Source of the DNA: Opitutaceae bacterium
Lineage (GTDB): Bacteria; Verrucomicrobiota; Verrucomicrobiia; Opitutales; Opitutaceae
Assembly: GCA_030693515.1 (NCBI GenBank)
Contig: JAUYAK010000093.1
Location: 62,001-126,000 of the forward strand
DNA: 64,000 nt
Direction of reading: 5' to 3'
Shown here: positions 1 through 62,025 of the stretch, in pieces
Position numbering within the stretch: position 1 is the stretch's first letter
Layout of the letters: each line of letters opens with the position of its first letter
The notes under the pieces: generated by a model
Database searches by the model: none
What the model saw: only the letters and a program-made list of their open reading frames with translations
What the model was told of the DNA's origin: nothing
Made by a program: the position numbers and the translations under genes

Positions 1-2
1 AC

Positions 3-740
3 GCCGCCCGCCGGAAACTCGCCACCGCCCGCGGCGTGAGCAGCGAGGCCCCCGAGATCAAGCAGCGCACCTTCTACGCCATCATCCAAGACGAAGAGTC
101 GAAGTGGGAAATCGTCTTCTGCCTCTGGGGCATGATCATCCTCGGCTACAAGCTGACGCACGTGACCCGGGAACGCGCCCTCCTGAAGCAGGATTTCGTG
201 CGCGTGCAGCCAGGCGAACGCATCATCCCCGAAGACGCGCTCGATCGCTACAAGGAGCTCAAGTCCGCGATCGAGCGCAACGGCCGATGGCGCGAACGCC
301 TGCTGCCGGAATGCATCCTCGCCTCGCTGCATCGTTTCCACGCCACGAACTCGGTGCAGGACGCCGCCACCGCCGTGCGCGAACGCGCCGAGCTGGCGGG
401 CGACGAACTCGACTCCTCGCTGGGCATGGTGCGCTACATCGCCTGGGCCATCCCCGCCCTCGGGTTCATCGGCACCGTGCGCGGCATCGGCGACGCGCTC
501 AACTCCGCCGAGGCCGCCATCAAGGGCGACATCGCGCCGGTGACCAACGCCCTCGGCCTCGCCTTCAACACCACCTTCGTCGGCCTCGCGCTCTGCATCG
601 TCCTGATGTTTTTCATGCACCTCGTGCAGGCCCGGCAGGAAGCCTTCATCATCGAGACCCAAGCCCTGTGCCGCGACAAGCTGATCGACGTGATGAAGGT
701 GCCGCACCTCGACAAGAGTGCGCCCGCTTCGTTCGCCTAG
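3..740 (+). CDS. MotA/TolQ/ExbB-family proton channel protein (5' truncated by window edge)
   Basis: Inner-membrane stator subunit of the ExbB/TolQ/MotA family, which forms a proton channel with a partner carrying one membrane helix. A first hydrophobic stretch (FCLWGMIILGYKL) is followed by a cytoplasmic helical region. Then come the two diagnostic segments IPALGFIGTVRGIGDAL and LGLAFNTTFVGLALCIVLMF, with the conserved Gly-Thr and Thr-Thr positions lining the channel in this family. A GTG at 36 could start the protein, but the frame stays open to the left edge (codons for AARKLATARG precede it), so the true start may lie outside. It ends 12 bp before the next gene, in a same-strand cluster with two vWA proteins that could supply the ExbD-like helix. 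The family assignment is firm; the role is inferred. Confidence 0.85.
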   Translation, partial: AARRKLATARGVSSEAPEIKQRTFYAIIQDEESKWEIVFCLWGMIILGYKLTHVTRERALLKQDFVRVQPGERIIPEDALDRYKELKSAIERNGRWRERLLPECILASLHRFHATNSVQDAATAVRERAELAGDELDSSLGMVRYIAWAIPALGFIGTVRGIGDALNSAEAAIKGDIAPVTNALGLAFNTTFVGLALCIVLMFFMHLVQARQEAFIIETQALCRDKLIDVMKVPHLDKSAPASFA

Positions 741-752
741 GCCGCCCCCATC

Positions 753-2243
753 ATGGCCACCCTTGGAATCGATCTGTGCGACGCGGCCTTCCAAGCCGCC
801 ATCGCAAACCACGACGAAGCGCGCCCGCTGACCATCGCCGACGCGCAGGGCTCGGGCGAATGGCCCGGCTTCGCCTACTTCGACGGCCAGAATTTCGCCT
901 TCGGCCGCGCCGCCGAGGACAACTGGTTCGTCCACCCACGGCGCGTGGCGCATACCTTCTGGGCGCGGCTCGCCCATGAGCCCTCGACCATCGGGCCCAT
1001 CGGCAAGGCCGCTCCCTTCTCCGAGCTGGCGTTCCACTTCTTCGGCGACTTCGTGCGCCGCGCCACCGCCGCGGCCCAGGCCGACAAGGTCGTGCTCGCC
1101 GTGCCCGGTGCCTACCTGAAGGACCCCGCCACCGAGGAGGAAAAAATCGGCCTGCTCCTCGGCATGGCCGGGGAACTCGACCTCCCGCTGACCGCCATCG
1201 TGGACGAAGCGTGCGCCACGCTCTGCGATCCGCGCGCGGGCGGCTTCAACCCCGCCCTGCCCGTCGTCCTGATCGACCTGCATCTGGAGGGCGCAGACCT
1301 CACGCTCCTCACCGCCGAGGAACACCTGGAGCGGCGCGACTTCATCCACCTGCCGCAGTCGGGCACGGCGCAGTTGCTGAAAAATTTCACCGCCGCGATG
1401 GGCAACCGCTTCCTGCGTCACACCGCGTTCGACATCCTTGAGGACGGCCGCATCGAGCAGCTGTTTTTCCGGCAGACCAAGGATTTTGTCCTCAACGGCG
1501 CCCCCGAGCATCGCTTCCAGATCAACACCGCCAAGCGCGCCTACGAGATGCTGGCCAAGCGCGACCAGCTCGTGGCCGACGCCCAGGGATTCGTCGCCAC
1601 GCTCGTCCAGGGCCTGCAGTCCTTCCTCCATCACTCCGCCCACGCGGGCGGCCCCTGCACCATCGCCCTCACCGACCGCGCCGCCATCGTGCCCGGGCTG
1701 GAGGAACGGCTCCGCACCGCGGGCTTCCATCGCATCCTCAAACTCGCGGCCGGGGCCGCCGCCTGCGGCGCCGCGCGCATTGGCGAGCATCGCTCCGCGC
1801 CCCCGGCCGACCTCGCGGATGTGCCGGTCGATACCGCCGTGCCGGTCGCGCTCACCCGCCGCAGTGCCGCTGCGCCTTGGGAGGCCCATCTGCAAAAACT
1901 CCGCGCCTCCGGCGCGGCGCGCCTGCAGCCCACGCACGCCGTGCTCGACGGCATCGGCCAGCCCATCGCAGCGGGCGCGCGCTTCACCATCGGTCTGGGC
2001 TCGCTCGGCGCCGATCTGGCCCTGCCCGCCGCGTTCGAGATCGCCGACGACTGCTCGATTCCGCTGCAGCGCGAGGGCGGCCGACTCTGGTTCGTCGATC
2101 ACGCGGCGCGTGCGATCGCTTCGTCCGCCGCCCGCACGCCGGTCGAGGCCGGCGATCGCATCACCGTGCGCTGCGGCGAGGCCTCCGCCGAGATTCTGTT
2201 TGCCCATTGCAATGGTCTCGCCGCCGGCCGCGCGCACGACTGA
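753..2243 (+). CDS. Divergent Hsp70/actin-fold protein with C-terminal FHA-like domain
   Basis: 496-residue cytoplasmic protein, no signal peptide. The N-terminus (GIDLCDAAF, residues 5-13) lines up with the phosphate-1 loop of Hsp70 (GIDLGTTNS). VVLAVPGAY (113-121), IVDEACATLCDP (149-160) and VVLIDLHLEG (171-180) match the later Hsp70 core strands. The Gly-rich phosphate-2 signature of DnaK is not kept, so ATP hydrolysis may be weak or lost. Residues about 405-490 (RFTIGLGSLGADL ... GDRITVRCGEAS) have the strand order and final G-D of an FHA domain, without a clear phosphothreonine-binding Arg/Ser pair. The gene sits 12 bp after the ExbB-like gene and 26 bp before the first vWA gene. Annotation pipelines would probably call it an Hsp70 family or hypothetical protein. 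The fold is an inference from motifs. Confidence 0.6.
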   Translation: MATLGIDLCDAAFQAAIANHDEARPLTIADAQGSGEWPGFAYFDGQNFAFGRAAEDNWFVHPRRVAHTFWARLAHEPSTIGPIGKAAPFSELAFHFFGDFVRRATAAAQADKVVLAVPGAYLKDPATEEEKIGLLLGMAGELDLPLTAIVDEACATLCDPRAGGFNPALPVVLIDLHLEGADLTLLTAEEHLERRDFIHLPQSGTAQLLKNFTAAMGNRFLRHTAFDILEDGRIEQLFFRQTKDFVLNGAPEHRFQINTAKRAYEMLAKRDQLVADAQGFVATLVQGLQSFLHHSAHAGGPCTIALTDRAAIVPGLEERLRTAGFHRILKLAAGAAACGAARIGEHRSAPPADLADVPVDTAVPVALTRRSAAAPWEAHLQKLRASGAARLQPTHAVLDGIGQPIAAGARFTIGLGSLGADLALPAAFEIADDCSIPLQREGGRLWFVDHAARAIASSAARTPVEAGDRITVRCGEASAEILFAHCNGLAAGRAHD

Positions 2244-2269
2244 CGCCGCCCTCGGCCGCTGCTTCCGCC

Positions 2270-3343
2270 ATGGCACATACCCGCAAGCGTCGCGACACCG
2301 AGGTCTTCAGCCTCTCTTTCCTCGACTGCATCTGCTGCGGGTTCGGGGCGGTGATCCTGATCTTCATTCTCACGGTCACGAAAAAGACCGACGTCGACAA
2401 AGCTGACGTGGACATCGCGCGCGAGAGACTCCGCGCCGCGCAAACCAACACCCTCTCCACCCAACAGGAGCTCGACCGCATCGCGCGCATCCTCGCCGCC
2501 GTGCAGCTCGAGTTGCAGGACCTCAACGCCAAGAGCGAGCAGGACCAGCTTAAGCTCAGTGACCGCAAGCGCGACCTGCTCCTCATGCTCCAGCAGACCG
2601 GCGCGCTGAAGGACGCGCTCCACTCCCTCCTCGGGGAAAAAAAAGCGCTGCCCACCGAGGACGTCGCCCCGCCCGTTCCCATTCCCAATATTGACCGACG
2701 CCAGTATCTCACCGGCGTGAAGCTCCACGGCGAGTTTGTCGTCTTCATCGTCCGCACCTCGGGCTCGATGCTCGACGAGACCATCGACGGCGCGGTCGCG
2801 CGCCTCGGCGACACCGACCGGCAGAAACGCGAGGCCCCCAAGTGGCAGCGCGTCGTGCAGTCGCTCGAGTGGATGCTCGCCTCGCTCGAGGAGGGCACGC
2901 GCTTCCAGATCCTGCTCTTTGCCGACGAGACGACGCCCATCCTCCCCACGCGCGGCGACGAATGGTTCAGCACCAAGGATCGCAAGACCATGTCCGAGGT
3001 CATCACCAAGCTCCACGCCATCGTGCCCCAGGGCGGCGCCAACCTTGAGCGCGCCTTCACCTCCGTCCGCTTCCTGCCCCGACTGCCCGACAGCATCGTG
3101 CTGCTCACCGACGGCCTCCCCACCAAGAGCGACTCGCTCCCGATGGAGGGGGAGATCGAGGAAGAGCACCGTAACCGTTTCTTCGACATCGCCACCAAGC
3201 AGCTCCCGCCCCGCATCCCCGTGAGCACGATCCTCTTTCCCATGCTCACCGGCGATCCCGGCGCCCCGGGGCGCTACTGGCAGCTTGCCAACGCCACCCG
3301 CGGCGCGCTCGTGAGCCCGTCCAAATCCTGGCCCGACACATGA
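2270..3343 (+). CDS. Membrane-anchored vWA-like protein with altered MIDAS
   Basis: 357 residues from ATG 2270. A basic N-terminus is followed by FLDCICCGFGAV and a hydrophobic run to about residue 36, giving one membrane helix with Asp19 at its entrance, like the proton-carrying Asp of ExbD/TolR. Residues about 45-125 are charged and heptad-like, probably coiled coil. A vWA-like domain fills about 155-357. Its MIDAS loop reads FIVRTSGSM, so the usual first Asp is Arg162; the codon is clearly cgc. LTDGLPTKSD later in the domain keeps the next MIDAS-type Asp region. The stop overlaps the start of the next vWA gene (ATGA at 3340). The upstream open frame to 1877 is a shadow of the previous gene, so ATG 2270 was chosen because it immediately precedes the conserved motif. 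Confidence 0.75.
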   Translation: MAHTRKRRDTEVFSLSFLDCICCGFGAVILIFILTVTKKTDVDKADVDIARERLRAAQTNTLSTQQELDRIARILAAVQLELQDLNAKSEQDQLKLSDRKRDLLLMLQQTGALKDALHSLLGEKKALPTEDVAPPVPIPNIDRRQYLTGVKLHGEFVVFIVRTSGSMLDETIDGAVARLGDTDRQKREAPKWQRVVQSLEWMLASLEEGTRFQILLFADETTPILPTRGDEWFSTKDRKTMSEVITKLHAIVPQGGANLERAFTSVRFLPRLPDSIVLLTDGLPTKSDSLPMEGEIEEEHRNRFFDIATKQLPPRIPVSTILFPMLTGDPGAPGRYWQLANATRGALVSPSKSWPDT

Positions 3344-4359
3344 TCCGCCGCCGCTCCGCCCAAGTCTTCAGCCTCGCCTTCCTCGACTGCATTTGCTGCG
3401 GCTTCGGGGCGGTCATCCTCATCTTCATCCTCACCATCAATTCGCGCGAAAAGGAAAAGATCGAGGTGCTCCTCGAGGTGAACCGCGAGCTCGCCGCGCA
3501 GATCGAGCAGCTGCTCAAGCTCCGCGTCAGCAAAGAGGACCTGGAGAAGAGCAACTCCCGCATCACCACCCTCGTCACCGACGCCCGCCTGCGCAACGAC
3601 TCGCTTCAAAGCCTCCTGGAGGATCTCGAGAAAAATCTCCAGCGCGAGAAGCGCGGCCAGGAGGCCCTCCTTGTGGACCTCGACGAACTCAAGAAGGAGA
3701 TCGCCGCGCGCCAGAAGAAGCCCGAGCACGAAGTCGTGCTCAAGGATGTGAAGCCCGCGCCCGTGGGCCTGCCCGTGGGCGACAACTACATCGCCTTCGT
3801 CATCGACACCTCCGGCTCGATGCGCGACCCCAATACCAATGGCCTCTGGCCCATCGTCATCCGCAGCATCGAGTCTGTCCTCGACTCCTACCCCAACATC
3901 GAAGGCATCCAGCTCATCGACGGCGACGGCCGCTTCGTCCTCGGCCGGCGCGGCGCCGGCAGCAGCGCCTGGCTACCCGATAACCGCGACACCCGCGAAG
4001 CCATCAAACGCACGCTGCGCCGCTACGAGCAGGACACCGTCTCCAATCCCGTGCCCGGCATCTACAACGCGATGCGCTTCCTCTTCGACCGCGACAACGA
4101 AAAGATGCGCATGGGTATCTTCGTCTTCGGCGATGAATTCAACTCCAGCGATTCCGCCGACGCCGTGATCCGCCGGCTTGAGGAACTCAATCCCCAGGAC
4201 GAGAAGGGCAACCGCCGCGTCACCATCAACGCCGTCGGCTTCCCCACCACGATTCGCTACCAGTTTTCGATGGGCAACACCGGCCTGCGCTTCGCCAACC
4301 TCATGCGCACCGTGACGCACCTGCACGGCGGCGCCTTCATCGCGCTGCAGGATTTGTAG
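3340..4359 (+). CDS. Membrane-anchored vWA domain protein with intact MIDAS
   Basis: 339 residues. The N-terminus repeats the membrane module of the preceding protein almost exactly (FLDCICCGFGAV, Asp16 before the helix). A long coiled-coil-like region (about 35-130, rich in E, K, L and R) follows, then a vWA domain from about 148. The MIDAS motif here is canonical: FVIDTSGSM with Asp156, Ser158 and Ser160, so metal-dependent ligand binding is plausible. The start overlaps the previous stop by 4 bp, which suggests translational coupling and a fixed ratio of the two products. Together with the ExbB-like and Hsp70-like genes it forms a four-gene unit. The C-terminus ends in the vWA domain with no OmpA-type peptidoglycan-binding motif. 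The function is unknown; a role in a motor or stator complex is inference. Confidence 0.8.
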   Translation: MIRRRSAQVFSLAFLDCICCGFGAVILIFILTINSREKEKIEVLLEVNRELAAQIEQLLKLRVSKEDLEKSNSRITTLVTDARLRNDSLQSLLEDLEKNLQREKRGQEALLVDLDELKKEIAARQKKPEHEVVLKDVKPAPVGLPVGDNYIAFVIDTSGSMRDPNTNGLWPIVIRSIESVLDSYPNIEGIQLIDGDGRFVLGRRGAGSSAWLPDNRDTREAIKRTLRRYEQDTVSNPVPGIYNAMRFLFDRDNEKMRMGIFVFGDEFNSSDSADAVIRRLEELNPQDEKGNRRVTINAVGFPTTIRYQFSMGNTGLRFANLMRTVTHLHGGAFIALQDL

Positions 4360-4557: not shown

Positions 4558-5697
4558 TCAGCGCGCCACGAGCCGCAGCACGAGGGCCTCGAAGCCGACG
4601 GGGCGTTCGTAGGCCGGGTTGCGCTCCACACGCTCGCGCGCCTCGATCACTTCGATCCGCGCGAGGCGGGCGGCGCAGTGCTGGAGCAGCGTGCGCACGA
4701 GCAGACGCGCATGCGCGGCGCCGAGGCAGAGGTGCGCGCCGAAACCAAACGCGAGGTGGGGGTTGGGCTTACGGTCGAGGCGGATCTCGTCGGGCGCGGG
4801 GAAGACCGCGGCGTCACGATTGGCGGAGGCCCAGCCGAGCGACACGCGGCCGCCGGGCGGCACCGTCTCGCCGTGCACGTCCGTCTCGACCGGGCACACG
4901 CGGCCGATGTGGGTGAGCGGCATGAACACGCGGAAAAATTCTTCCGCCGCGTGCACCGCGCGCGCGGGCTCGGCGCGCAGATAGTCGAGCGCCCCGGGAT
5001 TTTTCCCCAGGTAGTGCAGCACGGAGGCGATGGTGTAGATGATCGTGTCGCGGCCGCCGGCAAAGGCCAGGTTGCCGAAGCCCATCATCTCCTCGCGCGT
5101 GAGGGGCCGGCCACGGAACTGGGCGCGCGTGAGCACGCTGAAAAAATCCTCGCCCGGCGCCGCCGCGGCGCGGTCAAACGCCCCGTGCAGGTAGGCCTCA
5201 AGCGCACTGCCCTTCGTCGGTCCGCCGCCGTCGTGAAAGACGTGCGTCCCCCACCCGATCCAGATCTCGGCCTCGGCTTCGGCGACGTTGAGCAGGCAGG
5301 CGAGCGCGCGCGATTGGAGCGGTAGCGCAAATTCATGGACGGCCTCGATCGACGGGCGGGCCAGCGCCTCGCCGATGAGGCGCGCGATGAGCGCCTCGAT
5401 TTGGGCAATCACGGCCGGTTCCTTGGGCCGGCGGAAGATAGGTTCGACGATCTCGCGGTAGTCCGTGTGCTCCGGCGGATTGGTCTCGATGGGGAGCTGG
5501 CGCATCGTGCGATCCTCCTCCTCGGACGGGATGGGCACGCGGAACGGCGCGTCTGAGCTGTAGGTCTGCCAATCCTTGGCCGCGCGGCGCACGTCCTCAT
5601 GGCGGAGAATCATGGGAATGGCCTCACCTTGGAAAGGGCAGCGGAGGACGCCGTTTTCAGTGCGAGCCTGGCGAAAAGGATCGGAGGGGGCGGACAT
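4558..5697 (-). CDS. Cytochrome P450
   Basis: 379-residue soluble bacterial-type P450, a haem mono-oxygenase. The I-helix oxygen-activation motif is AGGRDT (213-218), the ExxR pair is E253/R256, and the haem-thiolate loop is FGFGAHLCLG with Cys324. The length is close to the roughly 400 residues of soluble bacterial P450s and there is no membrane anchor. No ferredoxin or ferredoxin reductase lies beside it, so electrons must come from elsewhere. Start ATG 5697 gives MSAPSDPFRQ, a typical short lead. It stands alone on the minus strand between the vWA cluster (convergent) and the glycosidase gene, 115 bp apart. The substrate cannot be predicted. Family assignment is secure from the three motifs. 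Confidence 0.93.
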   Translation of the reverse strand: MSAPSDPFRQARTENGVLRCPFQGEAIPMILRHEDVRRAAKDWQTYSSDAPFRVPIPSEEEDRTMRQLPIETNPPEHTDYREIVEPIFRRPKEPAVIAQIEALIARLIGEALARPSIEAVHEFALPLQSRALACLLNVAEAEAEIWIGWGTHVFHDGGGPTKGSALEAYLHGAFDRAAAAPGEDFFSVLTRAQFRGRPLTREEMMGFGNLAFAGGRDTIIYTIASVLHYLGKNPGALDYLRAEPARAVHAAEEFFRVFMPLTHIGRVCPVETDVHGETVPPGGRVSLGWASANRDAAVFPAPDEIRLDRKPNPHLAFGFGAHLCLGAAHARLLVRTLLQHCAARLARIEVIEARERVERNPAYERPVGFEALVLRLVAR

Positions 5698-5812
5698 GGG
5701 GAAAAGGGCATCCAGCTTTGGAGCGTCCGCTACGGCGTGGCCAGCATAGTCGTCGCACGCGGCGTCACGGCAGCGCGTAGATTTCAGGGAAGGCGCGGAT
5801 CACCATTCCCCC

Positions 5813-7432
5813 CTACGGCCCGGGTGCCAGCCGCACGATCAGGACGGCCATGCGGCCGGGCGCCGGGGGCGTGAAGAACAGGTCACTGCCGATCGGGCGA
5901 GGCGTCTCCATCCGAGACGCGCCGGAAAATGGATCGAACCACGTGGCGTGCAGGGTGCCCTTGGCCTCCTTGGGCGGGCGCACGACGAAGGCGGAGGTTT
6001 CACGGGGAACGAGATAAACGAAAAGGTCGCGCTGGTTGGAGAGGCAAAAGCCGTTGTTGCTGCGCCTCGGCTCCGGCTCGAGGCCGGTGAAGCCGTAGCG
6101 CGCGGCGAGCGTCGCGAGATGGCGGTAGTAGTGGAGCCGGGGCCGATCGGCCTCCGGGAGCACGGACGGATCATGGATGACGACGTTCCACGAGGTGTCC
6201 TGCCAGTAATGGGTCGGGAAGGCCCCGGCGAAAACGATCTGGTAGGCGCGCTCGAGGCAGACCTCCGGATCGAGGTAGCTGCCGGTGAAGACATGGATGG
6301 GGCCGCGTTCGTAGCCGCCGTGCTCGATGTTGAGAATCGGCTTCGTGGGATGCTTGGCGCGCACGTCCATCATCACGTGCCAGAGTTCAGAGGCCCAGGT
6401 CTGGATCGAGATGAAGTCAACGGTATCCGGATACCGCGAGCAGTAGCCGTAGTCGTGCACGGTCACGAGGCGGCGGCCCGCATCGAGGGCGCGGAGCCGC
6501 GCGGCGCGCTCGGCGATGTAGGGCATGTCGTTGCGTCCGTAGCCGGTGGCCTCCTTGGAGACATCCCAAAGCATATTAGGAAACGCCTGGTAGCGTTTGA
6601 CGATGTAATCGAAGTAGCGGTTGTCCTCCGCCGAGCGCGCGGCCGGCCAGGAGACTTGCTTGTTCCACACGTAGATCATCAGGTGGGCAATGAGCCCGCG
6701 CTGATCGAGGTGGGCGATGACGCGGTCGAGGTGCTGGAAGAAAGCCACGTTGAGCGTGGAAAAATCAGGGTTCGTGTTGTCGCCGCCGAAAGGGAAAATA
6801 CGCGGCCGGCCGTAATCGTGCGCAGGGTCCAGCTGGTGATCGCGCGGCCAGGTGACGTCGTAGGCATAGACGTTCATCACGACCTGGTTGAAGCCGTTGG
6901 CGGCGATGTGGCGGACGAGGGACACGGTCTTCGGGATGCCGGCGGGATTCTCCGCATCGAGGGCGAAGAGCCAGTCGGCCTCGAAGGCGATGGGGAAGCT
7001 GGGCGTGCCGTCGGCGTGGGCAAACTGGCGGGGATTTTTCGGATCGATGCCGAGCGGTCCGTGGCGCCCCGGGCCGGCGGCGGTCGCGCGGATGGCGCCG
7101 GAGAGTTGATTGAGGCCGGGCACGGCCGAGGCGGTGGTGAAGGTCCAGCGGCCTGCGCGGGGCGGCGCGAAGCGGAGCACGGTGCGACCGGGGCCGTCGA
7201 AGAACCCGGGGATAATCAGCTTTTCGCCGGCGGGACCGGTGAACGCCGCGCTGAACTCGACATCGAAAGGGTGGCCCGCACCAGTCGGCGCAGAGAAAAC
7301 CAAATCGAAGGGCTGCCATTGCTCCGTCGTCACCTCCGCCCCGGACCGAAACGGCGCGGAGGGCACGGGCAGTGCAGTGACGAGCGGCAAGGCCCAGAAC
7401 GCGAGGCCGACAGCGAGGCACCGAAAGCTCAT
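5813..7432 (-). CDS. Apiosidase-like glycoside hydrolase (DUF5060 + DUF4038-type barrel)
   Basis: 539 residues with an N-terminal signal peptide (MSFRCLAVGLAFWALPLVTA), so exported. Residues about 30-115 look like the DUF5060 beta-sandwich (QWQPFDLVFSAP ... RAGRWTFTT). A TIM barrel of the DUF4038/apiosidase-like type follows. Candidate catalytic acids are the Glu in WDVSKEATG and the Glu in ILNIEHGGYE, placed as acid/base and nucleophile in retaining barrel enzymes. The C-terminus (FVYLVPRETSAF ... ATWFDPFSG) matches the collagen-like or beta domain often found after this barrel. It lies 34 bp downstream of the sulfatase on the same strand, so the two are probably co-transcribed from the region at 9003-9315. 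The exact glycan specificity is unknown. Confidence 0.82.
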   Translation of the reverse strand: MSFRCLAVGLAFWALPLVTALPVPSAPFRSGAEVTTEQWQPFDLVFSAPTGAGHPFDVEFSAAFTGPAGEKLIIPGFFDGPGRTVLRFAPPRAGRWTFTTASAVPGLNQLSGAIRATAAGPGRHGPLGIDPKNPRQFAHADGTPSFPIAFEADWLFALDAENPAGIPKTVSLVRHIAANGFNQVVMNVYAYDVTWPRDHQLDPAHDYGRPRIFPFGGDNTNPDFSTLNVAFFQHLDRVIAHLDQRGLIAHLMIYVWNKQVSWPAARSAEDNRYFDYIVKRYQAFPNMLWDVSKEATGYGRNDMPYIAERAARLRALDAGRRLVTVHDYGYCSRYPDTVDFISIQTWASELWHVMMDVRAKHPTKPILNIEHGGYERGPIHVFTGSYLDPEVCLERAYQIVFAGAFPTHYWQDTSWNVVIHDPSVLPEADRPRLHYYRHLATLAARYGFTGLEPEPRRSNNGFCLSNQRDLFVYLVPRETSAFVVRPPKEAKGTLHATWFDPFSGASRMETPRPIGSDLFFTPPAPGRMAVLIVRLAPGP

Positions 7433-7466
7433 GAGGGATCGGACCGGACGAGGAGGAGAAGCAGGC

Positions 7467-9002
7467 TCAGTTCGCGCCGGGACCGAGGAGCTTCAGAAGT
7501 TCGGGATAGCGATCGTCGGTGTCGCCGATTTCCTGCTTCACTTTGCGGAGTTCGGCTTGGAGCCGGGTGACGGTCGCGGCGTAGGCGGGATCGGCGAAAA
7601 CATTGCGGCGCTCGTCGGGATCCTGGCGCAGGTCGTAGAGTTCCCAGCCTGGCTTGGTGGGAGTCTTCAGCGCGCCCGTCGCATCGAGCGGGAGGCCGTA
7701 GAAGAAGATCAGTTTGAAATCCTGTGTGCGAATCCCGTAGTGCGCGGGATTGTCGTGGTGCGTCATGTGCATCCAGTAGCGGTAGTAGGTCGCCGTGCGC
7801 CAGTCGGCCGGTGTGCGGCCGGTCTCAAGGATGGAGCGCATGCTGCGGCCCTGCATCGAACCCGGGACGGCGACGCCCGCGAGATCGAGGAGCGTGGGGG
7901 CAAAGTCGGTGTTGTTGACGAGCGCATCGGTGATGCTGCCGGCGGCGATCCGGGCCGGATAGCGGACGATGAACGGCATCCGCAGCGAGGGTTCATACAT
8001 CCAGCGTTTGTCGATGTAGTCGTGCTGGCCGAGCATGAAGCCCTGGTCGGAGGTGTAGAGAATGATGGTGTTGTCGAGATCGCCGGTCTTGCGCAGATGG
8101 TCGAAGAGGCGCTGGAGGTTGTCGTCGAGGCCGCGCACGGTGCGCAGGTATTTCTTCATGTAGCGCTGGTAACTGACGCGCAGATACTCGGCCTCGGGCA
8201 GGGCGGGATCGACGAACATGTGGTGGCCCATGTTGCGGCGGGTGTTGCGTTTTCCGACGGAGGTGCCAGTGCCCTGCGTGGCCGCGGAGCCGTGGTTGGG
8301 CGAATCGCGCAGGCTGGCGGGCTCGGGGATGTCGACGGTGTCGTAGAGAAAATCGTAGCGCTCGGCGTTCTCAAAATTGTCATGCGGGGCCTTGAAGTGG
8401 TGCATGAGAAAAAACGGCTTCGAGCGGTCGCGCTGGTTGAGCCATTCGATGGAGAAATTGGTAATGACATCGGACGAGTGAAGGGAGTCGTAGCTCTCGG
8501 GCGAGTTGACGAGGTTCTTGGGCCAGACACCGGCGCCCTTCTTGTGAAAGGTCGGGTTGAAATAGCGGCCCTGGCCGGGGAGCACGCAGTAGTAGTCGAA
8601 CTCCGCGGGCTCATTGTGCAGATGCCATTTCCCAATCATCGCGGTCTGATAGCCGGCGCCCTTCACGAGGCGGGGCAGATCGTGCTTCGCGACGGGCAGC
8701 GGATCGCTGAGGGTGCGGACGCCGTTGGTGTGCGAATACTGGCCGGTGAGGAGGGTGGCCCGGCTCGGCGTGCAAATGGAGTTGGTGCAAAAAGCGTTGG
8801 TGAAGCGCATGCCCTCCGCGGCGAGCCGATCGAGCGCGGGCGTGGGGTTCAGTTTTGCGAGATGGCTGCCGTAGGCGCCCACGGCCTCGGCCGCGTGGTC
8901 GTCGGACATGATCCAGAGGATGTTGGGGCGCGACGGCTGGGCCGCGGCGGTCACGGACAGGAGGGCAAGGACCGGGAGGTAACAACAGGGGGATAATTTC
9001 AT
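7467..9002 (-). CDS. Sulfatase, type I (formylglycine-dependent)
   Basis: 511 residues from ATG 9002; a TTG at 9011 would add three residues but ATG directly precedes the signal sequence MKLSPCCYLPVLALLSVTAA. After cleavage the protein starts RPNILWIMSDDHA, giving the paired metal Asp34/Asp35. The CTPSR motif (77-81) is the substrate for conversion of Cys77 to formylglycine, followed by the usual TLLTG. The full alkaline-phosphatase-like domain extends to the end. It removes sulfate esters from a carbohydrate or other substrate in the periplasm. No maturase (FGE or anSME) is in the window, so it must be encoded elsewhere. It is the first gene of a minus-strand pair with the apiosidase-like enzyme. 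It is divergent from the TonB receptor, which suggests a shared sulfated glycan target. Confidence 0.93.
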   Translation of the reverse strand: MKLSPCCYLPVLALLSVTAAAQPSRPNILWIMSDDHAAEAVGAYGSHLAKLNPTPALDRLAAEGMRFTNAFCTNSICTPSRATLLTGQYSHTNGVRTLSDPLPVAKHDLPRLVKGAGYQTAMIGKWHLHNEPAEFDYYCVLPGQGRYFNPTFHKKGAGVWPKNLVNSPESYDSLHSSDVITNFSIEWLNQRDRSKPFFLMHHFKAPHDNFENAERYDFLYDTVDIPEPASLRDSPNHGSAATQGTGTSVGKRNTRRNMGHHMFVDPALPEAEYLRVSYQRYMKKYLRTVRGLDDNLQRLFDHLRKTGDLDNTIILYTSDQGFMLGQHDYIDKRWMYEPSLRMPFIVRYPARIAAGSITDALVNNTDFAPTLLDLAGVAVPGSMQGRSMRSILETGRTPADWRTATYYRYWMHMTHHDNPAHYGIRTQDFKLIFFYGLPLDATGALKTPTKPGWELYDLRQDPDERRNVFADPAYAATVTRLQAELRKVKQEIGDTDDRYPELLKLLGPGAN

Positions 9003-9083
9003 GAGAGACAAAGGCGCGAGACGGAGCGGCTCCGCAAGCTGGCGTTGTAGGAGCCGCCGCCGGAGATGAAACCGGCCAAGACG

Positions 9084-9095
9084 TTAATCAGTTAA
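9084..9095. promoter_or_regulatory. Operator half-pair 1, TTAATCAGTTAA
   Basis: 12-bp site of form TTAA-N4-TTAA, itself close to palindromic, and an exact reverse complement of the second site at 9136-9147. The centres are 52 bp apart, about five helical turns, so one regulator could bind both on the same DNA face. The LacI-type gene at 13016 is the obvious candidate binder, by position only. Confidence 0.55.
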
Positions 9096-9135
9096 GCCCG
9101 GCGGGCCAGACCGAGGCCGCGCCTTCGCGCCGGCA

Positions 9136-9147
9136 TTAACTGATTAA
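9136..9147. promoter_or_regulatory. Operator half-pair 2, TTAACTGATTAA
   Basis: Exact inverted copy of the site at 9084-9095 in the same divergent region. It lies about 65-80 bp upstream of the putative TonB-gene -10 and on the far side from the sulfatase start, so it could control both directions. AT-rich sites stand out sharply from the GC-rich surroundings. Confidence 0.55.
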
Positions 9148-9210
9148 GTAGAGCAGCCGTTGAGCGCGGCGGTGTGGTTTGGCCACGTTTTCATACGCCA
9201 TAGTGGTGTT

Positions 9211-9219
9211 TGCTATCCT
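9211..9219 (+). promoter_or_regulatory. Possible extended -10 element for the TonB receptor gene
   Basis: TGCTATCCT resembles an extended -10 (TGnTATAAT). No good -35 is visible at 17 bp, which is compatible with an extended -10 promoter or with an activator. It would give a leader of roughly 90 nt before ATG 9316. Confidence 0.3.
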
Positions 9220-9315
9220 GCCCAACGGACTCCGAGCGCGCCCTCACCGGCGCAGCGGCGTCCACAGGGACTGCCTCCGCTCCGCCCCACCCTCGTCCAA
9301 AAACCACCTGACAAC

Positions 9316-12300
9316 ATGACTGCCTCCCCCTGCCCTCGCTTCCTCCCCCGCCCGGCCCGCGCAGCGCGCGGCGCTGCGCTCGCCTTGGCCTTGCCCGCCC
9401 TGCTACTGGCCCAGGCTGCCAAACCGACCACACCCGAAACCGCGGAGAAAATCGTCGAGTTGAGCCCCTTCGTCATTTCCGAGGATAGCAACCTCGGCTA
9501 CGCCGCCACCTCGACCCTCGCCGGCACGCGCCTGAAGACCGACCTGAAGGATCTGGGAGCCGCGATCACGGTGGTCACCGCCCAGTTCATGAAGGACACG
9601 GGCGTGACCAATCTCGAAGAGCTGCTGACCTACACGCCGAGCACGGAAATCGGCGGGCCGCTGGGCAACTATTCCGCGGGTGGCTTCGTGGATTCCGCAG
9701 GCCGGGCCGACCAGGACAGCGCCCGGCGCGATCCCCAGTCGGGCGCCCGCGTGCGTGGGTTCGCCTCGCCGAACTTCACCCGCAGCTATTTTTCGACGAG
9801 CATCAGCAGCGATGCCTACAATGTCGAAGGCGTCACCTTCAGCCGCGGCGCCAACTCGCTGCTCTTCGGCCTGGGCAGCGCCGGTGGCGTGATCGATACC
9901 GGCCTGAAGTCGGCCATCATCGGCCGGAACTCGGGCGAGATCACTTTCCGCTATGGCTCCCAAGGCTCCAATCGCTCCACGGCCGACTATAACACGACGC
10001 TGATTCCGCGCCGCCTGGCCCTGCGCGTGTCGTTGATGCACAAGAACGAAAACTACAAGCAGGAGCCGGCCTATGATCGCGAGAGCCGCGTTTACGCCGC
10101 GCTCAACGCCGTGGTCTTCGAGAACAAGAACAGCAACGTGCTCGGCAAGACCGTCGTGCGCGCCAATTTCGAGGCCGGCGAGGGCTCGCGCAATCCGCCC
10201 AGTGCCTTTGCGCCCCAGCTCGCCTACGAGTCGTTCTTTCTCCCGCCGCCGAACTACACCCCCTACACCGGGCAGGACTACCCGCTCGGTGGCGGCTACG
10301 CGATGTTGACGGCGAACTGGCGCAAGTGGGCGGTCAACGACACCCGTCGGCGCGAAGTTTCACCCGGCGTCTTCCAACCCGGCTGGTATGAGTCTTTCGC
10401 CACCGCCGTGCGTGATGGCCGTCCGGACTTGGTCGCCCAGAATCACTCCTCCTCCCACATCTTCCAGCAGATCGGCATTGTTTACAACGGCACCGGCGCG
10501 GCCCGTATCGGCATCCCCGGTTCGACGGCTGCGGGTTTCCAAGGCTGGATTTCGCAGGAGCCGGGCCAAAACGCCTTCACGGCCGGTCACATCAACACCC
10601 GCGCCTATCAGGACGGTGGCCAAAGCGTCGGCTTCAAAGTTCCGACGCTGACCGACACCAATGTATTCGACTACCGCAACAACCTCCTCACCGCCGGCCT
10701 GCAGGACATCAATCGCCGGTTCGACGCGGCTTCCGTCACGCTGGAGCAATCGTTCTTCCGCAACCGGCTCGGTTTCGAGGCCACCCTCGACAAGCAATTT
10801 TTCCACATCGACTACTACCAGCCCTTCGGCGGCAACAACCGCAACGTGCCGGTCTATGTGGATACCACGCTTTACCTTTCCGACGGCACACCGAATCCGA
10901 ACGTCGGCCGCGCGTTCATGTTTTCCCAGAACACTTCCGATCAGTGGCGCAACACCGCCCGGACGAACCAGCGCGTGACGAGCTTCTTCGATCTGAACTT
11001 CAAGGACCTCAACCCCACGCTGGGCAAATGGCTCGGCCGCCACACCTTCACCGGCCTCTGGCAAAAGGAGAGCGTCGAGACCAAGGGCCTCAACTATAAC
11101 ATGTATCTTCAGGGCGTGAACTTTGACCTCAACCGCTCCCTGAACGGCATCACGGCGGGCACCGGACTTTCCAACGCCCTCCAGAATCCCGCGATTCTCT
11201 TCGCCTACCTCAGCGATGATTTGCGCGGCAAAGAAATGAATCAGGTGCGCCTCAACCAGTTCGTGCTGCCGCGCCCGCAGGACGGCGAGACCTTCACGAC
11301 GTCCTATTACGACCTCAACACCCAGCTGGGCACTCCGGTCGGCACACAGCCGCGCACCTTCAAGACCGGCACCGTGGTCTATCGCCGGCTCGCCAACGGC
11401 GGCCAGGCCTTCCGCACCGACGTCACGAGCAAGGCGCTCGCCTGGCAGTCCCGCCTGCTGGGGGAGAACATCGTCGGCCTCGTCGGCTGGCGTGAGGACA
11501 AGATCGAGAATTTCCGTCAAATCGCCACCAACGGCCGCGCCGCCAACAACGAGTATCTCGCCTCGAACCTGCGCGTGAACAACGTCCCCGCGACGACCTC
11601 GACCGGCCGCACCTTCACGTGGAGTGCCGTGGGGCATCTGCCGAGGAAGTGGGTGGAAAAACTCCCGAGCTTCATCTCCAGTGTCTCCGCGCACTACGGT
11701 GTGGGTGAAAACTTCCAGGCGATCTCGGAGCGCCGCAGCGTCAACAACCAGGCGATCCCCAGCCCCTCCGGCACGACCACCGAGCAGGGCGTCCTGATCG
11801 GCTTCATGAGCAACAAGTGGACGCTGAAGATTAACCGGTTCGAGTCCGACAGCCGCTATGCGGGCGTCAACGCCGGCTTCGTCAGCACCTCGATCACGGA
11901 AGTCACCCGCGCGCTGAACAACTACCGGGCCGCGGAAAACTCCGGCCTGGCCTTCAATCAATTGTCCAGTTTCCCGTCCCTCTCGGCGGCCGGCTACTCG
12001 TCCTACGACCAGCTCTACACCGCGATCAAGAACCTGATTCCGCAGCCCACCCGCGCGCTCTACGACTACCAGATCATCAACAACACCTGGCAGCTGCCCA
12101 ACGGGGGCGGCGTCCAGGGCCTGGCCGCCACGACTGACGTCGTCGCCAAGGGCTGGGAAGTCGAGCTGACCGCCAATCCCCTCCGCAATTGGCGCATCTC
12201 GCTTAACGCCACGCAAGTCGAGGCGACCAACTCCAACTCAGCGACCGATCACGTGGCGCTCCAGGCCGCCTACGTCAAAAACCTGAACGACTCGAAACTC

Positions 12301-12792
12301 GCCAATATCGTCGAGGGGCCCGCCAGCATCACGACCTTCCTCGGTCGCTATACGCAGGAAGACATCGCTCCGCTCGTGCTGCTGCGCTCCAAGGATGGCG
12401 CCGTCAGCCAGGAACTCCGCAAGCACCGCGTGAACGTGTCCACCAACTATGACTTCCCCGAAGGCCGCCTCAAGGGCTTCGGCCTCGGCGGCTCGCTCCG
12501 CTGGCAGTCCAAGGTCGCGATCGGCTACGCCACGCAGCTGAACAACCTCAACCAACAGGTTCCGATCCTGAGCCGGCCGTTCTTCGGCCCGGACGAGCTG
12601 AACGGCGACGTGTGGTTCACCTACTCCCGAAAGCTCACCGAGAAGATTCGCTGGAAAGCCCAGCTGAACTTCCGCAACGCCATCGGCACCACCTCCGACA
12701 TCCCGGTCGCTGCCGATCCGGACGGCAAGCGGTCCGTCTATCGCATTGCGCCCGAGAAACAGTGGTTCCTGACCAACACTTTTTCGTTCTAA
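9316..12792 (+). CDS. TonB-dependent outer-membrane receptor
   Basis: 1158 residues from ATG 9316. The open frame extends to 9160, but the signal peptide (MTASPCPRFL, then an Arg/Ala-rich n-region and ALALALPALLLAQA) begins here, so this start is preferred. After cleavage comes an acidic IVELSPFVIS segment typical of Opitutaceae receptors, then a plug domain (TLAGTRLKTDLKDLGAAITV, NLEELLTYTP). A long beta-barrel follows, ending in aromatic WFLTNTFSF as outer-membrane barrels do. It imports a ligand, probably an oligosaccharide, using TonB-ExbBD energy. At 1158 residues it is long for the family, consistent with large extracellular loops. The gene is divergent from the sulfatase/apiosidase pair and followed by a strong terminator, so it is likely monocistronic. 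Confidence 0.93.
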   Translation: MTASPCPRFLPRPARAARGAALALALPALLLAQAAKPTTPETAEKIVELSPFVISEDSNLGYAATSTLAGTRLKTDLKDLGAAITVVTAQFMKDTGVTNLEELLTYTPSTEIGGPLGNYSAGGFVDSAGRADQDSARRDPQSGARVRGFASPNFTRSYFSTSISSDAYNVEGVTFSRGANSLLFGLGSAGGVIDTGLKSAIIGRNSGEITFRYGSQGSNRSTADYNTTLIPRRLALRVSLMHKNENYKQEPAYDRESRVYAALNAVVFENKNSNVLGKTVVRANFEAGEGSRNPPSAFAPQLAYESFFLPPPNYTPYTGQDYPLGGGYAMLTANWRKWAVNDTRRREVSPGVFQPGWYESFATAVRDGRPDLVAQNHSSSHIFQQIGIVYNGTGAARIGIPGSTAAGFQGWISQEPGQNAFTAGHINTRAYQDGGQSVGFKVPTLTDTNVFDYRNNLLTAGLQDINRRFDAASVTLEQSFFRNRLGFEATLDKQFFHIDYYQPFGGNNRNVPVYVDTTLYLSDGTPNPNVGRAFMFSQNTSDQWRNTARTNQRVTSFFDLNFKDLNPTLGKWLGRHTFTGLWQKESVETKGLNYNMYLQGVNFDLNRSLNGITAGTGLSNALQNPAILFAYLSDDLRGKEMNQVRLNQFVLPRPQDGETFTTSYYDLNTQLGTPVGTQPRTFKTGTVVYRRLANGGQAFRTDVTSKALAWQSRLLGENIVGLVGWREDKIENFRQIATNGRAANNEYLASNLRVNNVPATTSTGRTFTWSAVGHLPRKWVEKLPSFISSVSAHYGVGENFQAISERRSVNNQAIPSPSGTTTEQGVLIGFMSNKWTLKINRFESDSRYAGVNAGFVSTSITEVTRALNNYRAAENSGLAFNQLSSFPSLSAAGYSSYDQLYTAIKNLIPQPTRALYDYQIINNTWQLPNGGGVQGLAATTDVVAKGWEVELTANPLRNWRISLNATQVEATNSNSATDHVALQAAYVKNLNDSKLANIVEGPASITTFLGRYTQEDIAPLVLLRSKDGAVSQELRKHRVNVSTNYDFPEGRLKGFGLGGSLRWQSKVAIGYATQLNNLNQQVPILSRPFFGPDELNGDVWFTYSRKLTEKIRWKAQLNFRNAIGTTSDIPVAADPDGKRSVYRIAPEKQWFLTNTFSF

Positions 12793-12848
12793 GCCGGGTG
12801 GCCCGCAAACGGGCCGCTTCCTTTGGTTAGGGTCAATGTCCGGGTCAG

Positions 12849-12886
12849 GGCGCGGCCTCTTTCATGGGGGCCGCGCCTCTTTTTTT
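12849..12886 (+). terminator. Rho-independent terminator after TonB receptor
   Basis: Perfect 9-bp stem GGCGCGGCC (12849-12857) and GGCCGCGCC (12869-12877), 11-nt loop, then TCTTTTTTT. It lies 57 bp after the TonB stop. Confidence 0.9.
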
Positions 12887-13015
12887 GCCCGGGCGTGAGT
12901 TTCCATGTTAAGACTCCGGGGGCCCGCGTCATCCCTTTAGGACATGATTACCCCAGATGCATGCGTCGCCCGCGCATCCAGCGCGGACACCCCCCGCCCG
13001 CCAGCGGCCCAACCG

Positions 13016-14116
13016 ATGACTCGCCCTACTCTGAAGGACATCGCGGCCTTGGCTGATCTCAGCGTCGCGTCCGTCTCCATGGCGCTCCGCAACAGCCCCA
13101 ACGTCTCGCGCGGCACCATCGCGCGGGTGAAGGAAATCGCCCACTCGCTCGGCTACCGCCCCGATCCCACGCTCTCCGCCCTCGCCACCTATCGTAAGCG
13201 CCTGAACGGAGCACCTATCACCGCGGCCTTGGCGCTAATCACCAACTGGCGCGACAAGGAGAAATGGATTACCCATCCCAACCCGCGGCTCTTCGTCGCC
13301 CGGGCCACCGAGCGCGCCGCCGAACTCGGCTACTCCCTCCAACATTTTTGGGCCCGCGAGGGCGGCATCACCCCCCGTCGCTTCAACCAAATCCTCCAGG
13401 CCCGCGGCATCCGCGGCGTGCTCCTCGCCCCGCCGGAGCATCCCGCCGACGAGCTGGAGCTCGAATGGGACCGCTATTCCGTGATGTGCCTTGAGCGCCC
13501 GGGCCGCATCGGCCCATTCGATTTTGTCGAGCCCGACCAATACCACGCCATCGCCCTGTGCTGGGAGCACCTGCAGGCCCGCGGCTACCGCCGCCCCGGT
13601 CTCGTGGTCGACGAGTATTTCACCGCCCGCTGGGGCCACCGCTGGGAAGCTGCGCACGGGCAGCTCCAGCTTCAGCACTGCCCCCGCAGCCAACGCGTGC
13701 CGACCTTGGTCGTGACCGAGCAGCGCCCGGTGGATCAGATTCGCAGTTGGCTGCGCAAGCACCAGGCCGACGCCGTCATCAACCGCAGCCTGAGCTTTGC
13801 CGCGGCCGTGACCACGGAGGGTCTCTCCATCCCCGGCGATCTGGGCTACGTCAGTCTCAACACAGACGCCGACCGCCCCGATGCCAGCGGCATCACCCAG
13901 CGCTTTGACCTGCTCGGCCAACTCGCCATCGACCAACTGCACCGCCGGCTCCTCACGAGCCAACGCGGCCCCGGCCAAATCGCGGTCGGCACCCAAGTCT
14001 GCGGCTCCTGGCGCGACGGCACCACCCTGCCCGACGCGCGCCTCTCCGCCGGAGATCATCACGATCGCGCCACGGTTCGGTCCGGGTTGCGTGACCGCGT
14101 CACGCAGGTGGCCTGA
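13016..14116 (+). CDS. LacI-family transcriptional regulator
   Basis: 366 residues from ATG 13016, placed just before the helix-turn-helix (TLKDIAALADLSVASVSMAL, then NVSRGTIARVKEIAHSLGYRPD with the hinge helix). An in-frame ATG at 12944 would add 24 residues unlike the family, so it is less likely, though possible. The C-terminal part is a periplasmic-binding-protein-like effector domain (LALITNWRDK ... GIRGVLLAPPEHP ... GLVVDEYF ... GDLGYVSLNTD). It binds DNA as a dimer and responds to a small sugar ligand. It stands between the TonB gene and a DJ-1-like gene and is the most likely regulator of the TTAA-N4-TTAA sites at 9084-9147. That link is inference from position. Confidence 0.9.
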   Translation: MTRPTLKDIAALADLSVASVSMALRNSPNVSRGTIARVKEIAHSLGYRPDPTLSALATYRKRLNGAPITAALALITNWRDKEKWITHPNPRLFVARATERAAELGYSLQHFWAREGGITPRRFNQILQARGIRGVLLAPPEHPADELELEWDRYSVMCLERPGRIGPFDFVEPDQYHAIALCWEHLQARGYRRPGLVVDEYFTARWGHRWEAAHGQLQLQHCPRSQRVPTLVVTEQRPVDQIRSWLRKHQADAVINRSLSFAAAVTTEGLSIPGDLGYVSLNTDADRPDASGITQRFDLLGQLAIDQLHRRLLTSQRGPGQIAVGTQVCGSWRDGTTLPDARLSAGDHHDRATVRSGLRDRVTQVA

Positions 14117-61985: not shown

Positions 61986-62025
61986 AGCCCGGCCCCACCA
62001 TTCCCCAAAACAATCCAACTATTCC

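Follow-up and report, generated by a model that had tools for sequence, protein, structure and literature searches.

Ion-driven motors of the MotA/TolQ/ExbB class drive processes as different as swimming and gliding, the import of nutrients, division and defence against phages. In the Exb, Tol, Mot and Zorya motors the partner of the channel subunit ends in an ExbD/TolR or an OmpA domain. The closest described system was proposed in June 2025 (Mol Biol Evol, PMC12204202), where the models made with AF3 (Fig. 4c-d) predict, by computation only, a TolQ-like motor with a second family of vWA proteins as its axle; according to the main text it occurs in Proteobacteria and Verrucomicrobia. Here we describe a four-gene operon of an Opitutaceae bacterium (assembly GCA_030693515.1, 6.6 Mb in 130 contigs) encoding an ExbB-like channel subunit, a pseudo-Hsp70/FHA protein and two vWA proteins, vWA1 and vWA2. 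It was analysed in a window of 64,000 nucleotides (positions 62,001 to 126,000 of contig JAUYAK010000093.1, in our numbering G000:C44:62001-126000). We consider it probable, though well short of certain, that the operon encodes an ion-driven vWA force transducer on the cell envelope together with a regulator; our confidence is higher for the identity of the motor and lower for the exact role of the regulator. A first-pass annotation of this DNA had read the whole as a possible new system, but a TolQ motor with a vWA pair as axle had already been put forward in PMC12204202. The motor core is of that predicted kind, and the pseudo-Hsp70/FHA adaptor with the matching loop of the ExbB ring is the new part.

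All four open reading frames (ORFs) are open and lie on the plus strand, from 124 bases left of window base 1 to window base 4359 (Table 1). The adjacency and spacing read by the first-pass annotation agreed exactly with the ORF coordinates: 12 bp separate the ExbB-like gene from the pseudo-Hsp70 gene and 26 bp the latter from vWA1, and vWA1 and vWA2 overlap by 4 bp (ATGA). As the start of vWA1 the ATG at 2270 was chosen, in agreement with the relatives. The product of the first gene, which carries an added N-terminal hydrophobic segment, scored 54.3 bits against the MotA_ExbB model PF01618 (cut-off 22.9), confirming its assignment as an ExbB/TolQ-type channel, and a profile of the ExbB-like protein matched TolQ chains at E 0.0026, in an alignment that includes the GTV segment. 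For the ExbB alignment 82 sequences were collected and two long-branch rows (L148 and L211) removed; T200 and T233 were identical in all of the remaining 80.

The helices of the vWA proteins read SFLDCICCGFGA or near variants of it. The helix Asp was found in 90 of 91 distinct vWA1 and 91 of 92 distinct vWA2 sequences (loci L111-L216), the remaining one of each kind giving no match to the search pattern. At the equivalent position the ExbD-like proteins of this genome show PLIDV. A profile search of the genome yielded matches to PF02472 (ExbD/TolR) on contigs C9, C14 (two), C58, C61 and C96 and none on the contig of the operon (C44); ExbD genes adjoin four of the six ExbB/MotA-family genes (those on C14, C58, C61 and C96, the last below the cut-off). 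The proposal that the vWA proteins fit the role of a one-helix, Asp-bearing partner was thus supported. Against the two proteins the Pfam vWA models reached 25.6 and 20.7 bits, below the cut-off of 27; the predicted fold of vWA2 matched vWA domains (Foldseek on the AlphaFold model). In this model a single helix (residues 36-124, confident to about residue 110) is followed by a vWA-type domain; the transmembrane segment is rendered as a low-confidence strand, to which no weight was given. Between helix motif and metal site lie 127-140 residues in vWA2 and 124-157 in vWA1, a nearly constant spacing, so both chains would have a similar reach. The MIDAS motif DxSxS is retained in 91 of 92 vWA2 versus 35 of 91 vWA1 sequences, from which the vWA2 arm should bind metal and the vWA1 arm, in most sequences, should not. 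Because basic residues stand ahead of the transmembrane helix, we infer a cytoplasmic N-terminus and a periplasmic vWA domain.

The pseudo-Hsp70 gave no Pfam match, PF00012 included, and the two HSP70-model matches of the genome are both at other loci. Residues 1-350 of its predicted structure matched the fold of the Hsp70 ATPase (nucleotide-binding) domain, in line with the Hsp70/actin fold first suggested for it; the list of structural matches covers these residues and not the FHA tail. No N-terminal hydrophobic segment appeared in a hydropathy scan. The phosphate-1 and phosphate-2 motifs were found in none of 70 full-length homologues and the adenosine motif in two, off its expected place, whereas the DnaK control has all three. 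Since the phosphate loops are lost, the protein is unlikely to act by canonical ATP binding; a canonical Hsp70 ATPase was accordingly dropped, and the Hsp70-like sensor first suggested is unlikely to work in that way. On the FHA-like tail the results were divided. Among homologues outside Verrucomicrobiota 16 of the 19 scanned (26 are distinct there) matched PF00498. The window protein itself has no Pfam FHA match: in its alignment two of 27 sequences matched at E up to 0.1, and it was not one of them. The SRxH phosphopeptide signature of FHA was not seen in the Verrucomicrobiota homologues. At one locus (L158, CP070843.1) a short pseudo-Hsp70 of 252 amino acids, with the FHA end kept, stands ahead of vWA1-vWA2, with no ExbB match in the stretch.

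The presence of the pseudo-Hsp70 gene changed twice on an ExbB tree of 82 sequences and four times on a tree of 116 sequences from which the loop columns were masked. Residues 116-118 of the ExbB-like subunit read [IVLF][ILM]P in 83 of 83 motors with pseudo-Hsp70 and in none of 33 without it, the pattern having been loosened to this form after the variants IMP, IMP and FLP had been seen. These counts omit L148 and L211 for their long branches, L271 and L272, where ExbB runs off the end of the sequence, and L276 and L286, which gave no ExbB match. All four presence changes coincide with a change in the loop. Within 186-237, the membrane residues that motors with the gene conserve are retained by motors lacking it, I188 excepted. 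As its residues co-vary with the presence of the pseudo-Hsp70, the ExbB loop is, by correlation, a candidate site at which the adaptor would dock on the ring.

Of 26 other genomes of the genus, 24 have a homologue of the pseudo-Hsp70; over all 57 genomes searched, its own among them, the number is 29. At the 28 other loci from this search, ExbB is the immediate upstream neighbour 27 times, and vWA1 and vWA2 follow downstream 27 and 23 times, respectively; the misses are contig ends, with the exception of one locus (L062). A scan of the contig collection with the vWA alignment gave at least 562 confirmed relatives, the best 80 of which are the named loci. All four genes stand in order in 60 of these 80, and nine have ExbB-vWA1-vWA2 without pseudo-Hsp70; in the 11 lacking an ExbB match the cause was a contig end in ten, while the eleventh (L158) is on a chromosome. 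With 60 of 80 loci holding all four genes in order, gene order and linkage are far above chance, and the conserved four-family neighbourhood on which the first-pass annotation had staked its proposal was found again in further samples. By record names, full four-gene loci occur in Verrucomicrobiota, Pseudomonadota, Kiritimatiellota, Myxococcota and Thermodesulfobacteriota. The named loci include some from Halioglobus japonicus and Pelagicoccus strains, which can be grown in culture. Among the matches listed the nearest relatives are Opitutaceae (Verrucomicrobiota), the closest ExbB being 96% identical. The ExbB tree largely follows the taxa, with some members of the phylum of the window grouping with Proteobacteria. 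At two loci (L271 and L272) the order is changed to pseudo-Hsp70, vWA1, vWA2, ExbB.

In an even draw of 387 genomes from the phylum of the window a strong vWA pair (both matches above 140 bits, weaker vWA matches not being counted) was present in 23, and 19 of these also had the pseudo-Hsp70; five of the 19 were judged from match coordinates, and G342 and G205 have their parts on two contigs. The class of G433 (369 genomes) gave 26 strong-pair loci besides G433 itself (L271 and L272 among them), 17 with and nine without pseudo-Hsp70, and the phylum of G433 (398 genomes) gave 14 loci, two with and 12 without. From these two samples the variant without pseudo-Hsp70 is common outside Verrucomicrobiota. 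L206 was left out throughout, as were partial matches in G521, G532, G724, G751 and G910, and a match in G384 of the phylum sample, lone, weak and without an operon, was treated as false.

Table 1. Features of the operon and of its neighbours (positions are those of the window unless a locus is named; aa, amino acids)
Feature	Position	Strand	Remarks
ExbB/TolQ/MotA-like motor subunit	1..740 (3' 740 bases in window)	+	Gene start G000:C44:61877 = L007:17877; 287 aa; extra N-terminal helix
Cytoplasmic loop G113-E-R-I-I-P-E-D120 of ExbB-like subunit	213..236	+	Candidate docking site
ExbB-like residues 116-118 within loop	222-230	+	Track presence/absence of pseudo-Hsp70
T200 of ExbB-like subunit	474..476	+	Invariant Thr, GFIGTVRGIG helix
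T233 of ExbB-like subunit	573..575	+	Invariant Thr, last helix (FNxT)
Pseudo-Hsp70/FHA protein	753..2243	+	496 aa; presumed cytoplasmic
Hsp70-type nucleotide-binding-domain fold	753..1802	+	Residues 1-350; without phosphate-1, phosphate-2 and adenosine motifs
Degenerate FHA-like C-terminal domain	1929..2216	+	About residues 393-488
vWA1	2270..3343	+	357 aa; basic N-terminus, one transmembrane helix with Asp, linker, vWA domain, altered MIDAS (RTSGS)
D19 of vWA1	2324..2326	+	Conserved Asp in SFLDCICCGFGA; presumed proton carrier
vWA2	3340..4359	+	339 aa; basic N-terminus, one transmembrane helix with Asp, predicted long helix, vWA domain, intact MIDAS (DTSGS)
D16 of vWA2	3385..3387	+	Conserved Asp in AFLDCICCGFGA; presumed proton carrier
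Glycine-zipper protein	L007:17034-17693	-	219 aa; weak Pfam match below cut-off; left of window
DUF4136-like protein	L007:16248-17003	-	251 aa; weak Pfam match below cut-off; left of window
PEGA/FGE-sulfatase proteins, examples	L174:2-2455, L160:2-2350, L166:2-2119		

Left of the operon, two divergent genes encode a glycine-zipper and a DUF4136-like protein, both with a lipobox-like N-terminus (judged by eye, without a tool). In the named set these families lie beside the operon at 32 and 30 loci, respectively. Glycine-zipper proteins were called by a composition rule of our own with looser thresholds, which was positive for 71 of 4290 flanking ORFs. The divergent glycine-zipper protein was present at 37 of 41 verrucomicrobial loci and at none of 23 outside, where such a protein stands downstream on the same strand at seven of 27; with 0 of 23 a universal glycine-zipper partner was rejected. 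Directly before ExbB, a relative of a protein with PEGA and FGE-sulfatase domains is encoded at all 23 non-verrucomicrobial loci that have an ExbB match and at least 900 bases upstream, and at none of 41 verrucomicrobial ones. The same neighbour was found in two further samples, at 19 of 26 loci of the one and 13 of 14 of the other, among them loci that have pseudo-Hsp70 and loci that lack it; at L290 the distance is 1161 bases. Of the eight misses, six are loci with less than 450 bases of upstream sequence or with no ExbB within the stretch, and at L270 and L300 the upstream sequence is present and gave no PEGA/FGE match. The kinds of neighbours suggest a role in the envelope. A MoxR ATPase, which had been named as a possible further member beyond the left edge, was dropped from the picture: none was encoded by the 10 ORFs scanned leftward. 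To the right of the operon (window 4558-14116) lie genes for a cytochrome P450, an apiosidase-like glycosidase with DUF5060 and a sulfatase (all on the minus strand), a TonB-dependent receptor plug protein (plus strand) and a LacI-type regulator (12944-14116).

In the mechanism that we propose, the operon would encode a 5:2-type motor of the MotA/TolQ/ExbB class that is driven by ions, probably protons. Its pore would consist of five ExbB-like subunits with four helices each and its axle of a vWA1/vWA2 heterodimer, with the N-terminal helices (SFLDCICCGFGA) inside the pore, where the Asp would take up the proton. From the membrane each vWA protein would extend by a spacer of near-constant length, formed in vWA2 by a long helix, and would end in a vWA domain in the periplasm, so that the vWA pair would follow any rotation or tilt of the axle. 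With its metal-site motif vWA2 may grip a partner at the outer membrane or the cell wall, the divergent glycine-zipper protein being the first candidate. The cytoplasmic pseudo-Hsp70 would dock on the loop of the ExbB ring (about residues 113-120) and act as clutch or activator, its FHA domain reading phosphorylation in most Proteobacteria and, in Verrucomicrobiota, possibly binding by shape alone. A bolder version, in which a catalytically dead Hsp70 fold is the clutch that couples FHA-read phospho-signals to force on the outer membrane, with four or more gains or losses that each went along with its docking loop, is put forward tentatively, at somewhat short of an even chance. Of the original stator interpretation, the partner role of the vWA proteins and the conserved neighbourhood have stood; a wholly new system has not, and the Hsp70-like sensor is unlikely to work by canonical ATP binding.

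Several results weigh against this picture. The absence of ExbD is not peculiar to the operon, as the MotA/ExbB-family gene on C106 also has no ExbD beside it, and vWA2 fails the ExbD model PF02472 (11.6 bits versus a cut-off of 25.4; vWA1 is not listed). Heptad-like periodicity was visible in the spacer of vWA2 (peak at 104 degrees) and unclear in vWA1 (peak at 112 degrees), so that a shared vWA1/vWA2 coiled coil is a guess. One locus (L062, G044:C10) keeps ExbB and pseudo-Hsp70 with no vWA match within 11 kb. The next ORFs there resemble a Vsr-type endonuclease and a DNA methyltransferase (named by eye). Outside Verrucomicrobiota the neighbour is the PEGA/FGE-sulfatase protein and not the glycine zipper. 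The pseudo-Hsp70 is dispensable, being absent in 33 of 116 motors, and a sign test on the loop gave p = 0.125, the best that four events can reach and short of significance. The first version of the docking site (R115, D120 and A150) failed. In the first sample 11 of 12 motors without the gene had lost all three residues and the twelfth had lost two, and none of 68 motors with it had lost more than one; in the second, independent sample 0 to 3 were lost with the adaptor and 1 to 3 without. Version 2 (116-118 = [IVL][IL]P) was derived from samples one and two and fixed before the third, where it was found in two of two motors with and none of 12 without pseudo-Hsp70, a sample with only two positives and with negatives that are apparently near relatives; in the first set this strict form misses three of 68. 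The adaptor-less verrucomicrobial lineage also differs at 8 to 10 of 21 conserved cytoplasmic positions and in the vWA1 N-terminal tail, where the loci inspected have SSALSF in place of VFSLSF; in this lineage the loop step is thus the recurrent element of a broader change.

The pseudo-Hsp70 might instead be an assembly chaperone, or a helper of membrane insertion, for the vWA pair and not a standing part of the motor. Its Hsp70 fold, the place of its gene immediately ahead of the vWA genes (60 of 80 named loci), and the altered vWA1 tail of the adaptor-less verrucomicrobial lineage would all fit, and it can be missing (33 of 116), as an assembly factor can. A chaperone would, however, have to work without ATP loops (0 of 70) and without the substrate-binding part of Hsp70, which by domain make-up is missing, FHA forming the C-terminus, and the change that recurs in all four lineages sits in the cytoplasmic loop of ExbB. 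We therefore regard this explanation as unlikely. The question whether the vWA pair is the axle at all is raised by the first vWA family of PMC12204202, which is of a side-binding kind: the two proteins could be TolA/TonB-like transducers on the side of an ExbB pentamer whose true axle, ExbD, is encoded elsewhere, and C9 does carry a lone ExbD gene with no ExbB match alongside. That family, as described in the main text, has an SHLS/His helix and adjacent tolR genes, whereas the helix Asp of the operon is in an ExbD-like register (compare PLIDV) and no ExbD is linked. The vWA genes are, moreover, paired wherever the locus is long enough for both, L062 excepted. We regard side-binding transducers as improbable.

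A Zorya-like anti-phage device, whose motor would sense envelope damage and trigger an effector, was considered as well, ZorA being the best match of the ExbB-like protein in a defence library (E 7e-5 to 8e-3). PADLOC, run on the operon proteins only, gave these weak ZorA matches and no match to ZorB, ZorC or ZorD for the other three proteins, and membership in Zorya was dropped. The same divergent neighbours recur across Opitutales (32 and 30 loci) and the ExbB tree is largely taxonomic, so a housekeeping envelope system fits better than a mobile defence gene; we give the defence reading hardly any weight. If the ion-driven vWA transducer is real, a widespread vWA-armed, pseudo-Hsp70-adapted version would add to this motor class a branch with its own regulation, and a membrane machine would, unusually, employ an Hsp70 fold for structure or signalling.

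Compared with ExbB-ExbD, TolQ-TolR, MotA-MotB and ZorA-ZorB, the operon shares a PF01618 subunit with conserved Thr and a partner with one N-terminal Asp-bearing helix (MotB, ExbD and TolR are named in the main text of PMC12204202). It differs from these four in that the partner ends in a vWA domain, has the helix signature SFLDCICCGFGA and consists of two different chains, and in the extra N-terminal helix of the ExbB-like subunit. Unlike Hsp70/DnaK, the pseudo-Hsp70 has no phosphate or adenosine loops, has an FHA C-terminus and is not found by the Pfam HSP70 model. The MoxR-vWA and GTPase-Hsp70 conflict systems (eLife 2020, PMC7159879) resemble the operon in joining vWA or Hsp70 proteins with regulators, but they differ from it by MoxR, which is absent from the 10 ORFs left of the operon, and a term search of the main text of that paper found no TolQ, ExbB or MotA. 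In PMC12505986 and PMC9389320, which treat such motors, a term look-up did not find vWA. Searches of the open PMC library, which excludes preprints and most subscription papers, listed nothing that by title and abstract was recognisable as describing the Hsp70 component; in the main text of PMC12204202 the terms Hsp70, chaperone, DnaK and ATPase do not occur, and the single match to FHA is FhaC. The vWA pair of PMC12204202 remains the closest system, with a TolQ-like subunit, two heterologous vWA genes, a helix Asp, pore Thr residues and no tolR or exbD, a likeness drawn from the features described there. Beyond that description the operon has the pseudo-Hsp70/FHA gene, an ExbB loop that co-varies with it, and neighbours of the PEGA/FGE or the glycine-zipper kind.

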